Below, piece by piece: positions 1,564 through 7,634 of a DNA stretch of 64,000 nucleotides; positions within the stretch are counted from its first letter, which is position 1; the number at the start of each line of letters is the position of its first letter. A model generated the notes under the pieces. That model did no database searches and had not been told where the DNA came from. It saw only the letters and a program-made list of their open reading frames with translations. The DNA comes from Eublepharis macularius. Taxonomy: Eukaryota; Chordata; Lepidosauria; Squamata; Eublepharidae. The stretch covers positions 66,479,766-66,543,765 of the forward strand of contig NC_072801.1 in the NCBI RefSeq assembly GCF_028583425.1, read 5' to 3'. The position numbers and the translations under genes are program-made.

Positions 1564-4500
1564 CTGATTATATTTGTGATTCCATACAATCGCACTTGCG
1601 TTAATGGTGAATTCTTGGCCTCCAGGAGCCCAGGGATCCATCTTTCCAACTTGAACATGCCGTAAGGATCTATTGAGGAATGTGATTATGTTGATGATGT
1701 CGTATCCAAAGGCCTGTCCTCCATTTCTATCAACGAAGATTTCATCTCCCGCGCTATTGTTAAAGCAAACCTTTCTTAGAAAAGAGTGCAGCTAGATGGG
1801 AGAGAAAAGGTTGCAAACAGGGAGAAAAAACACATGGAGAGAAAGGGCACATTGCCCCTCGTGAGGTGATCTCTGAGTTGAAAAGTCTATTCACTACTCT
1901 TGTATTTACCACCCAGAGGAATTCTTTAGCAGTGTCTCTCAAGGTGCATCTCAAATGTGTCGTTTTGTGTGAGATCTTCCCTCGCTGCTTGAGACTGCAC
2001 TACATCAAGAGTGTCCTCTCACCCCTCCCTGGTGTTCACTGTGTTTGCCAGAAGCTATTGGACAAGGTGTCTCTCCAAGACTTGCTGTGTCCTAAGATGG
2101 GGTCCTTTAAGATTTAGCAGTCATATCTTTCCTCATGCTAACCGACAGAATGTATATCCCTGTATCCCTGTATATGATAAATGCAAGGAACTGCATGGCA
2201 CAAAGCAGATAGGCAAGATCCTAAAAAATTATCCTCTCATCCACACCCAGCTCAATACCCTCCCCACACCCATTGACCTTGATTAAGAACCCAAAACCTG
2301 GGAGCTATTCACATCCAGTACTTACATGGTCATCAAACACATTTATAAATCCAAAGCCCACCTTAGATAAACTCATCCAAGCTCCTAATGCTTCATCTAC
2401 CTTGAGAGACATCCATTAAGTTATTTGGGGGGGGGCATAAATGTCAGCTAGTCCCAGGCCTTATATCTGGACTCCCCAGATACTAGTTTGTTCATTTGGG
2501 TCTGCTTCTCTCCATGAAATGCTGGTTGTTTTGCTGCTCTTCTGCTTTCATCTTTAAGACTAGTAATGATCACCCTACCTGAAACTGCTGTCTCCCCTTT
2601 CCTCCGTAACTTCTTAGTTAGCTCTGTATGTGTGCCATATACTCTGTGCTTGTTTGCTTACCTTTTACTTCTTTTAAATAAATACCTTTCCAGTTGAACA
2701 TCTGCATGATTTATTTGTGAGTTCTCTTAAGGTAATAATCCCTATAAACACTGGTAGAGATTCCCAGTTACCTCCTCTCACTCTTTCTCCTTAAGTCAAC
2801 TCTCCCAACTAATTAGGAGTCCACCTATTTGGGTAATATAAGGGAGATTCTTCCCTACAGCCACCAGTCTGGGCCTTGCTTCCATCCATGCAGCCTCTGC
2901 AAGAGTTGGAATGTGCTGGGAAATATCTGATGTAGGATACACATTAGATGTAGTAAGGATGTAGTAAGCAAAGCCCATCCCATGGAACAAGCATGTATGA
3001 AATTTGGAAATGATCAAGGAGAAAATAAATTATTTTGTCAGCACTGAGAGTGATTGAAAACTATCCAGATATTTGGTTGTTCTCTGGGGGTCTAAGTGTA
3101 TGTTATATTTTCACAAGGAAACATCAAGGATAGTTTGGAACAACATAATTGAATTTCGATCAGGAGAACAATACAATAGGGGGCCATATAAGTACTGAAC
3201 AGATTTTTGTCTTTCTTACATTCTCTCAACCCTCCCTGCCCCTGGCTCTTTCACTCTGGAAAAATTGGCAAGTACAAGATCTCTTTCTCCAAAGCCATGA
3301 TACTGGTCCATTTTGGATCCTGTGCGACTGAGAAACTTCACAAAATACTAGTCCAGCATACACATCATTGTCCCTTCTGTTAGGCCATGGGAGCAACAAG
3401 AACGTGGATGGATTTGGGCATCAATACAAGAGACTGACAGCATGAAGGGACATGAGCTTGGAAGAGTCACTGACCAGTCAAAATAAGGCCTGTCTGATTA
3501 TGTCACCTCTTCAAGTTGGAGAAGAAAAATATTTTCTACCCAAATTCATTCCCTTTTGAACTGAAATTAAGTGAACCTTATGAAGGAAATTACTTCAAGA
3601 ATGATTATCTGTCTCTTCATTTATATATGTACAATGAATTAAGCTCATTAAGTTATGCATGTATTCATGTTGAAAGAGCAGAAGGGAATTAATAGATTCC
3701 TCACAGAATTTCACGTGACTATGTTTCAGCATCCCTCCCCCAAACAGTCATTCTCAGGAAAAAGGTCTTCCAAAGTAAATTCTCTGTCACAGGATCGAAC
3801 TGTTTCAACAGTGCCCTTTTGTACTTTCTTCTCATGCTGAACGTCCTATGGATGTTCAGAGTTAATATTGTTTGAATTCAAAGAGAAATATAAATTGTAT
3901 GAACCTTCACAAATTAATTTTGGAGAAATGCATAAAATGCATATATCTTGTGTTAAAAAACGTTTCTGAACCCAAAAGTAGGATGAGGTGTGATTGATCG
4001 GAGCTGAGACTCACCTGCCAAGGCTGAATGTTCCCAAGTTTTCTCCTCTCTGCAAATCCCTTTGCTCTTCGCTTGAAACTTGACAAATGCAGGGCATGGA
4101 GAGCATGTGCGAAGGAGTAAACAGCATTATAGACGCTGTAGCTATGGCCAGACATTCTCATTTCAAACATGAGTTCAGGGAGGCTTCTCAACTTCTCCTT
4201 TCCAGTGCAGAGAGGAAGGCTGGGTTGCTTTAACCCAGTAAAAGAACAATGAAATATCGCTGACCAGTAAATGCGGAAATCCACATAAAAATCAAGCGGA
4301 TTGATGCTATCGAGGAAATCCTCAAATCCTGGTCCCACGTTTGTGTGCTGACGGAAATACAAAGTACCGTTGAGGGATTTTGCTGTGAATGCGTTCTTCT
4401 GAAACAGAAATGTTAAATCCAGCTTAGCAGTTATGATCCACACCCGCTCCATTGGATTGAAGTAACGACCTTCGTATGTATGTAGAATTAGTCGTAATCC

Positions 4501-7500
4501 TGTCATAGACATAAAATCCCCATGGACAAGAATGACATTCCCTTTCTTCAATGAGAGAGAAGATAAGAAGCCTTTCAGGACTGTCGTGAAAGTATTTTCT
4601 GCTTTATGGAATAAAATTGGCATCATTTGTGTAAATGCAACACAAATGTTGTTCTGGAGGAGCCTGGGTCTCAGGGTCTGCAGAAAAGTTTCTCCACTCT
4701 CATCATTGGAAGTGATGAGACCAACCCACGTCCATCCAAAATGCTTGAGCAGCTGAACTATCCCAGCATAGTGAAGATTTTCATTCGGAAACATCTGGTA
4801 CAAAGACGGGAACTGAACTTGATCACTCAGCACTGGATCAAAAGGGCCATAAGTGAGCTAATGTAAAAGTGGTAAAATAGTTATATTATAGCATTGGGAA
4901 ATACATCACTGTTTTCCAAGCCAAGACTTAAATGTTAGATGAAATAAATTTAATCCTTCAACACACATTGTAATCCAAATCTTACTATTTCCACAGATAC
5001 AATTTATGTTCATGGACCCTATTAGGAAATCTGGGACCGAGCTAAATTCCAATGCGGAATAATGTGGTCTGGGGACATATTTGTGCCTGGAATTCCAGGA
5101 AGGGCCCAGGAGTTATGACCTTCCAATCTCCCATTCGTATTCTGCCTCGTTAGTTCCTGTCGCATTGCATGAGCAGAAGAGGCCTGCGGTCCTCAAAGGG
5201 GTTTGTTGGAATAAAAGCAGGTTAGATTTTTAGGTCTGTTTTATAGAAATCTACAACTTCTGATGTGGAGAAAAGTATCTATTTGGAGAATGGGTTGAGC
5301 AGCTCCACTACGAAGCTCTGATACCTGCTATGCATTCACCTGAGGACACATACAGGCCTCGCGCCATACGGGAACTCTAGTCCCCTCAGCTTCTACTGTA
5401 TGATGGCTGGTCAAGCTGTCCCATGATGAGGTCTGTCAATGTTGGAGGCTTTTTGCAATAATTGTACACTGTTGCTTTAGTGTTATTTATGGGAATGTCA
5501 TTATTATGCTACCATATTTTAACTTTTATGTGGTTGTAATCTGCTCAAAGCCTGCTTGCAAGGTGAATGGATTAAAAGTCAAATAAATAAATGAATACAT
5601 ACTTGTGGTATCTTGTAGTTTGTTAACATGTTGGCCATCTGAATTGAGTTTTGAGAGGAGAATTCACCGATGAATGCCAGAATTTCTTTCCTCCTGTTGC
5701 AGTTGTAATTGGTGGGATTCCGTAACAAGAAGTAGAGGTAATTGAGTGTGTTCAAACTAGTTGTCATTACGCTGAGTTGATTGTCATTCCACATATATTT
5801 CAATGAAATGTTGGGCAAGAGATGGTTATTCTGGTGGATCTCACCTGCAGCAAAAACAAGGGACAGGAAATGCTGCAAGTATTTAGGGGCTACCCTGTAG
5901 AGAGATTTCCATGTGTAACAGAGAAACAAAAGACTATTGTTACCACCCACTTCTAGCTGCAGACACTGTATCAGCAGTTGAAACTCTTATTTCAAATTAC
6001 AGTTAGATGCAATGTTGACTCTTCAGGCAATCACTAATCACAACAGTCACAAAGGTGCTTCCTAGTTGCTTGTAAGATTGTCCTTCTGGTGGGCACCAAT
6101 ATCCATGGCTAGATGTTCAAATATGATGCCATCATTGACAGAGAATCCCATCTCCGGCTCCACATTTTCACTCCCATTTAAACAGCTCAAAAGTGACCAT
6201 ATCATCAAAACCTCCTAGCTCCATCATCTCAAAACAGCCTTTCTGTCTCTCCAGATATTTGCACATGTTCTTTAAAAATACCATGGCTTATCTCAGCAAG
6301 AGAGGGACTCCTCTGCCTTAGAGCAACTCAAAGCTGTGATGTGATTTAAGAATTCTAAGGAAACTTGAAAACCATTTTTCAGAATGGAGGCAAGAAACTT
6401 CATCTTTAGAGCTGTCAAATGGGAAAATGAAGTACTCAGTTTGTTTAACTTTCTGTGCTAGGGAAACCCTGAAAAGTCTGAAAAATTAATAGGAGTTCAG
6501 ATTCATGCATGATTTGTTTTTCCTTTCAGTCTTCCATGATGCCTTAATATGAGAATTGGCCATCTGGAAAAGCCTTGTACCCAAGATGGTATCGAAGATT
6601 TAGCTGTTACTGTAGAGCTGTGATTTCCTTACAGAAATCTTTCCCCTAAGAATGATACAAAATTACACGTCTTTATCTAAAAGGCTATATGATAAAGCCG
6701 AGGGCAAATAAGTGTGCTATGGGTTTAAACATACTATATGCATCCCCATTTTTCCCATTCTCCATGAAAAAACTTCTTTAAAAAAGTCTTCATTTTTTTC
6801 AGTATCTTGGAATAGTTTTAGTCCTGAGTGCCAGGATTATGAACTATGATAACTAGCACATATAAGTACAAATGCAATTATTTCAATCAGAAAGACAGAG
6901 TCTTTATACACAGCACAAGGTCTGTATATAAAACGTTATATGATAAAGCTGTTGGCAAATGAGTGTGCTATGTGTTTAAACAAACTACACCCACCCCACT
7001 TTTTTGGATCACCATGAAAACACTTCTTAAAAAAAAATCTTTTTTTTCAGTATCTTGGAAATGGTTTAGTTCTGTATACCAGGTTTGTGAACTATGATAA
7101 CTAGCACGAATACATACAAATCTAATTATTTCAGATAGAAAAAGAAGAAACTGTGTGTTTTACAGCAACTCAAAACTGCGATGTGATTTAAGATTTCAAA
7201 TAAAAATTATCTGCACCCAGGTAAACGATGTGCATCCCCAGTTTTTTTTTATCTCTGTGGAAATGCATCTCTGAAGATGGCTTCTTTGTTGGCAATATCT
7301 CATAAATTGTTTAGTCCAGAATTCTCTATTAGAGATTAGAGTTCTTCTAAGAAATATTGCAGATGGATTAATCAATGAAGGCACTTTCTTACCAAAAATC
7401 TTTCACGTAGTCTTCTGGCTTTGTAAAGTTGAGTATTTCTACAATTGCAGATGAATAGGATCCTAACATGACGATAATATAATTTGTTGTATGGAACTCA

Positions 7501-7634
7501 CATTTATCTTGACTGCACACAGAACTCAACTTTATGCTGAAAGCGTGAGGACTGAGCCAGAGGAAGAATAGTATTAACAAAAGCCATTTGCGTGTCTGCA
7601 GTTTTCTGCTCCAGTCCTTGCTGACCTCCTGCAT
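1564..7634 (-). CDS. Type-2 vomeronasal receptor (V2R), exons 1-4, apparently intact
   Basis: V2Rs are class C GPCRs of vomeronasal neurons that bind peptide cues through an extracellular Venus-flytrap domain. Exon 1 is 7393-7634, with a signal peptide starting at MQEV and a hydrophobic core WLLLILFFLWLS. Exon 2 is 5603-5894, exon 3 is 4015-4857 (LTYGPFDPVLSD, then HSYSVYNAVYSFAHALHALH) and exon 4 is 1564-1791. All junctions have GT/AG sites and phases agree (242, 292, 843 and 228 bases), giving 535 codons without a stop. The MQEV start is chosen because the second copy shares it; an in-frame ATG lies four codons upstream. Exon 5 (nine-cysteine domain) and exon 6 (seven helices) would lie left of base 1, so the gene is partial here and its integrity unproven. 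Introns share sequence with the pseudogene at 17032-25369, marking a tandem duplication. Confidence 0.87.
1792..4014 (-). other. V2R intron 3, homologous to the second copy's intron
   Basis: No exon is visible here. Segments at about 1800-2110 and 2870-3030 resemble 19740-20060 and 20090-20230 in the second V2R. This shows that the duplication covered introns as well as exons. Confidence 0.6.
5354..5596 (+). mobile_element. LINE 3' end (CR1/L2-like) inserted at the V2R exon 2 splice donor
   Basis: The element ends in a short AAATAAATAAATGA tail. Its body has the form of a LINE 3' end (TGTAATCTGCTCAAAGCCTG, then a tail of A and T). The hexamer ACATAC flanks it at 5348-5353 and 5597-5602. The paralogue reads GAGGACACATACCTGTGG at about 23926-23944 without an insert, so this is a true empty site. 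On the minus strand ACATAC is GTATGT, the first six intron bases. Confidence 0.75.
6640..7360. repeat. Tandem duplication of about 250 bases in V2R intron 1
   Basis: The segment beginning TATATGATAAAG at about 6686 recurs at about 6937. Both copies share GTGTGCTATG, TTTAAACA, TTTTTTCAGTATCTTGGAA and GAACTATGATAACTAGCAC. A third, more diverged relative spans about 7196-7360 and resembles about 24940-25105 in the second V2R. Confidence 0.7.

Follow-up and report, generated by a model that had tools for sequence, protein, structure and literature searches.

A probable truncated LINE at the exon 2 splice donor of four V2R paralogues in Eublepharis macularius, with a target duplication probably shorter than the flanking hexamers of one copy suggest

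In introners, the 5' splice site is recruited from the target duplication, as described in the sections of PMC9860276 drawn on here. The locus presented in this work resembles introners in that duplication of target sequence provides or preserves a splice site, but no intron was created: the intron predates the insertion, the empty paralogues hold the same intron without the element, and the element itself appears to be a truncated LINE. L2/CR1-type target-primed insertions are alike in their (AAAT)n tail and probably in their 5'-truncated 3' end and short target duplication, and only the position differs, being here the first bases of an intron. Furthermore, the array in which the locus lies resembles other V2R (class C GPCR) arrays in its six exons, its ANF_receptor and 7tm_3 domains and the many paralogues on one contig, with the difference that four copies found here bear a LINE at the exon 2 donor. 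The event is ordinary in kind, a retrotransposon insertion near a splice site, and a literature search of limited scope yielded no title describing a LINE insertion at a V2R donor.

The window, by which we mean the whole analysed stretch of 64,000 nucleotides, corresponds to C12:66479766-66543765 of the 2.24-Gb genome. The first V2R gene lies on its minus strand and comprises exon 1 (7392..7634, the piece as matched), exon 2 (5603..5894, 292 nt, acceptor CTACAG/GG read by eye, last codon CAA for Gln; the slash marks the exon border throughout), exon 3 (4015..4857, ANF_receptor domain, E 5.1e-31) and exon 4 (1564..1791); exons 5 and 6 are located beyond the window limits. Matches to ANF_receptor (E 5.1e-31) and 7tm_3 (E 5.1e-82) place class C GPCR domains in the gene, which we take to be a V2R from its exon layout and motifs. 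Intron 2 (4858..5602, minus strand, 745 nt) opens with the 5' splice site GTATGT (5597..5602, minus strand), directly beside the exon end at 5603, and a second GTATGT at 5348..5353 of the same strand marks where the intron originally began (GTATGTGTCCTCAGG), a point that today lies at intron position 250. An earlier, sequence-only reading of the locus had pointed to the complementary hexamer ACATAC on both sides of an insert, and it was found at 5348-5353 and 5597-5602; the exon 2 end at 5603, the donor at 5602-5597 of the minus strand and the predicted 5603-4857 junction were likewise borne out, exon 3 beginning at 4857. The same reading had named a paralogue with an uninterrupted site, and the second V2R of the window does read CCACAG/GTATGTGTCCTCAGGTGAATG at its donor and intron start.

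When the genome was searched for exon 2 together with its donor, at least 40 matches were obtained (40 of 106 candidates scored), from which 30 loci were fetched; 10 matches on C4 among those listed were left outside the exon 2 donor set, and L020, which contains exon 2 only in part, was excluded from the donor table, so that 29 donors were read. The insertion is present in four of these and absent from 25. Apart from the window gene, the filled genes are L012 (approximately 30 kb away), L013 (approximately 0.95 Mb) and L016 (approximately 0.91 Mb), and further filled copies may exist beyond the four found. A common empty form is CCACAG/GTATGTGTCCTCAGG, and beyond the insert GTATGTGTCCTCAGG resumes at intron position 250 in the window gene, 239 in L012 and 281 in L013. 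As the far side of the insert runs on with the string that starts the intron of the second V2R, the two constitute a true filled/empty pair. Shifted positions of a shared insert, which the sequence-only reading had named, with regard to related species, as grounds for abandoning it, were not seen in this genome, the same single position being occupied in all four filled copies. In L016 the far side has been lost: 93 bases of shared tail and element are followed by other sequence, and approximately 6.8 kb of LINE-like sequence (by eye) extend to a point 261 bases short of the intron end. Within intron 2 of this gene (C12:67389747-67396904) these 6.8 kb displaced most of the older element and the intron start. 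Two further observations concern the array. L020 (G000:C12:67441194-67441371) is a second, partial exon 2 of the L013 gene, lying in intron 1 upstream of exon 2. In addition, open frames at G000:C12:66440000-66444000 and 67435700-67438300 adjoin V2R genes, and presumably resemble parts of DIRS-type retroelements.

The insert occupies 5354..5598 of the plus strand (right edge 5598 to 5600), antisense to the gene, and ends in an (AAAT)n tail (5581..5600, plus strand) that, on the gene strand, places a U-rich run beside the donor. The insert is most plausibly a 5'-truncated LINE 3' end, related to the type present at L055, for which we assume the clade name L2/CR1. The stretch between the hexamers is repetitive, with at least 41 genome matches on many contigs (40 of 125 candidates scored), and three of the related copies (L004, L005 and L007) extend by eye upstream past the 5' end of the insert with common sequence, on which ground a SINE was ruled out. 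An open frame of L005 is 69% identical over 139 residues to a frame of L055. The latter frame follows an RVT_1 domain (E 1.2e-34) in a LINE that lies on the same contig. A Pfam match for the L005 frame itself was sought and none was found; we take this frame to resemble the C-terminal part of an L2/CR1-type ORF2. Comparison of the 3' end of the L055 LINE with the insert gave no match beyond the simple-repeat tail, hence the L055 LINE would be a relative, neither the source nor a member of the same subfamily. Moreover, a variant within the element reads GAATG in all four filled copies and GAGTG or AAGCG in L004, L005 and L007; in L006 and L008, which gave no hit in the pattern scan, visual inspection shows GAGTG. 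That GAATG is common to the four filled copies fits one shared insertion.

The exon-side letters bear most directly on the length of the target duplication. At the exon 2 donor the window copy reads CAA/GTATGTATTC, whereas L012, L013 and L016 all read CAA/GTATTTATTT, in which the complement of the (AAAT)n tail comes straight after GT. All 25 empty copies have G at position +5, as does a single filled one, the window copy (position 5598). Position -1 is G in 24 of the 25 empty copies and A in all four filled ones, and the last codon of exon 2 is correspondingly CAG in 24 of 25 empty paralogues versus CAA in the filled genes. The empty V2R L026 combines C at -1 with the donor GTAAGT, possibly a compensating pair of changes. 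Since only GT must derive from the target, and either target or tail may have contributed the A at +3 and T at +4, the duplication comes to 2-4 bases when the filled copies are taken together; it would be six bases in the window copy only. The sequence-only reading had proposed that a six-base duplication rebuilt the donor. Its core, a LINE-type insertion at the donor with GT kept at the exon, stands; the six-base length is not supported, and "rebuilt" is too loose a word because any staggered-cut insertion leaves target bases beside the exon. The insert, given there as 5354-5596, accordingly becomes 5354-5598 with a 4-base and 5354-5600 with a 2-base duplication. Short duplications agree with coelacanth CR1 insertions, for which the sections of PMC4255032 drawn on here give 2- and 3-base examples and duplications in 13 of 16 insertions. 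Squam3, a squamate SINE with an L2-like 3' end, has a very low duplication rate according to the part of PMC7983390 drawn on. Duplication lengths for squamate L2 were sought in PMC5389967 and PMC4316615, the portions of which available here give none, and PMC13295347, in its corresponding portion, deals with Bov-B rather than L2. At the other extreme there may have been no duplication at all, the element having joined exactly at the exon border and brought the GT with its tail (...AAATAC reads GTATTT on the gene strand). The tail of L004 does end in AAATAC, and GTAT units occur inside the tail of L013, but an exact join at the border together with a chance GT would be required and a duplication of 2-4 bases is simpler, which leaves this reading very improbable.

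Phylogenetic analysis of the exons gave the order in which the donor letters were probably acquired. The filled copies form one clade, with support of 100/100 in the exon 3 tree, where 18 of the 22 rows are empty copies, and of 100/99.9 in the exon 2 tree, where 22 of the 26 rows are. The latter was built without L038-L040 and the former without L039 and L040, and also without L014, L023, L031, L032 and L037, in whose fetched stretches exon 3 was sought and not found. Exon 2 places L012 as the sister of the window copy (100/99) and exon 3, with weak support, L013 (83/58), and in both trees the window copy with GTATGT is nested among copies with GTATTT. In the body of the insert, gaps uncounted, the window copy is identical to L012, which has GTATTT, at 205 of 210 positions and to L013 at 187 of 217. 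By exon 6, L013 and L016 are the closest pair, unlike the groupings by exon 2 and exon 3. Differences of this kind in the nearest relative from exon to exon make gene conversion in the array likely. A separate insertion in L016 was rejected on account of the same position, the same A at -1, the same GAATG and the clade support of 100, though the far side of this copy is gone. Also rejected was the acquisition of the window donor by gene conversion from an empty paralogue, since a converted tract of just six bases that left the A at -1 untouched would be needed.

With branch lengths taken from the exon trees (the zero length of L012 being set to 0.013), a one-rate substitution model gave odds of approximately 383:1 and 1592:1 that the filled ancestor had T rather than G at +5, ratios that overstate the case because the model ignores slippage of the tail. 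These values count against the six-base duplication, in which GTATGT saved the donor at once, the window copy retains the original state and the other copies lost the G at +5 later. An identical hexamer does flank the insert on both sides in the window copy, repeat tails are prone to slippage, and slippage or homogenisation of the simple-repeat tail could have removed a genuine GTATGT from each of the other three copies independently. Nevertheless, this history would require the G at +5 to have disappeared separately in genes that share the reading GTATTTATTT and among which the window copy branches, and the short duplications of the coelacanth CR1 elements (PMC4255032, in the sections used above) also speak against it; we regard it as improbable.

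We consider it probable that a single LINE insertion with a short duplication weakened the donor, that the gene was then copied, and that the window copy later underwent a T>G change at +5. The 5'-truncated LINE 3' end of approximately 245 bases would have entered an ancestral V2R once, in antisense and within the first four bases of intron 2, and target-primed reverse transcription would have duplicated only 2-4 bases (GT to GTAT). The exon would thereby have kept its GT, while the LINE tail (ATTT repeats) took over starting between +3 and +5, and the ancestral GTATGTGTCC was displaced approximately 240-280 bases from the exon. The donor left behind, CAA/GTATTT, with G>A at -1 as well, would have been weak. 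The gene would then have been copied into at least four genes, the exon pieces of which are all open. Most likely the ancestral G at +5 was lost at insertion and regained by T>G in the window copy alone, a reversion that would have restored GTATGT and part of the U1 pairing and that would mimic a six-base duplication. Both the single insertion event and this order of changes are what we infer from comparing the paralogues.

The predicted strength of the donors follows the same division. Among the empty copies, 25 in all, in-register U1 pairing was calculated at -7.2 to -10.2 kcal/mol; 13 of them reach -10.2 and ten have -7.2, with single copies at -9.7 and -7.6. The corresponding values are -0.8 kcal/mol for L012, L013 and L016 and -3.7 kcal/mol for the window copy. 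A GTATTT donor with G at -1 is predicted to pair in register at -7.3 kcal/mol, so loss of the G at -1 would have been costlier than loss of the G at +5. When out-of-register pairing was permitted, the predicted values were -4.0 kcal/mol for the window copy and -3.4 kcal/mol for the other three filled copies; the gap between them is almost gone, and hence the gain at +5 may matter little. The exon 2 of the window copy in addition holds a strong donor-like CAG/GTGAGATC at 5842..5847 of the minus strand, where it reads CAGGTG (TAAATG in L012 and L013), with a predicted U1 pairing of -11.1. This site arose by three clustered changes and is absent, by pattern, from 22 of 22 readable copies among the 28 others; a transcript spliced there would lose 242 nt and fall out of frame.

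Despite these donors, the filled genes appear intact in their coding sequence. None of the four has a stop in its six exon pieces, exon 2 having been checked across 276 nt. A shared insertion would place every difference among these genes after the event, and over these differences pooled dN/dS is 0.31-0.61 in the six pairs of filled genes (exon 5 left out for pairs with L016, the piece of which is one codon shorter). Taken exon by exon, dN/dS ranges over 0.29-0.70 in exon 2 (five pairs where defined), 0.36-0.79 in exon 3 and 0.24-0.30 in exon 6. From the open exon pieces and dN/dS, splicing at the exon 2 donor probably survived without a six-base duplication. Skipping of exon 2 was rejected, since the loss of 292 nt would shift the frame. 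Whatever the length of the duplication, the filled genes could instead be young pseudogenes that mis-splice exon 2 and whose frames are still undecayed. The pairing of -0.8 kcal/mol in three copies and the strong competing site in exon 2 of the window copy (-11.1) are in line with this, as are the seven non-synonymous and zero synonymous changes that separate exon 2 of the window copy from that of L012, a 7:0 count by which the recent state of the window exon 2 may escape constraint. The absence of stops and the pooled dN/dS argue against decay, provided that the insertion is shared, but gene conversion with working copies could mimic both. On balance we find the pseudogene reading doubtful, while giving it real weight.

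For genes that do splice, the tail of the LINE might itself contribute. TIA-1 and similar proteins, which bind U-rich sequence, bring U1 to weak donors, and the U-rich run TTTATTTATTT contributed by the tail lies just downstream of the donor. That the tail is a working splicing aid is a speculative and rather unlikely proposal. If true, G at -1 and +5 would have become less necessary with such help from the tail, and three intact receptors could have gone on splicing from CAA/GTATTT ever since the insertion.

An exact six-base direct repeat can thus mislead when it is read from one gene copy, and it is the series of paralogues that orders the events. The interest of the locus lies in this series and in three genes that combine open exons with a very weak donor. 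The V2R family of E. macularius offers a natural series of donors, 25 undisturbed and four in which the LINE tail begins from about +3, which could be used to test how weak a vertebrate donor may be while the gene stays intact.
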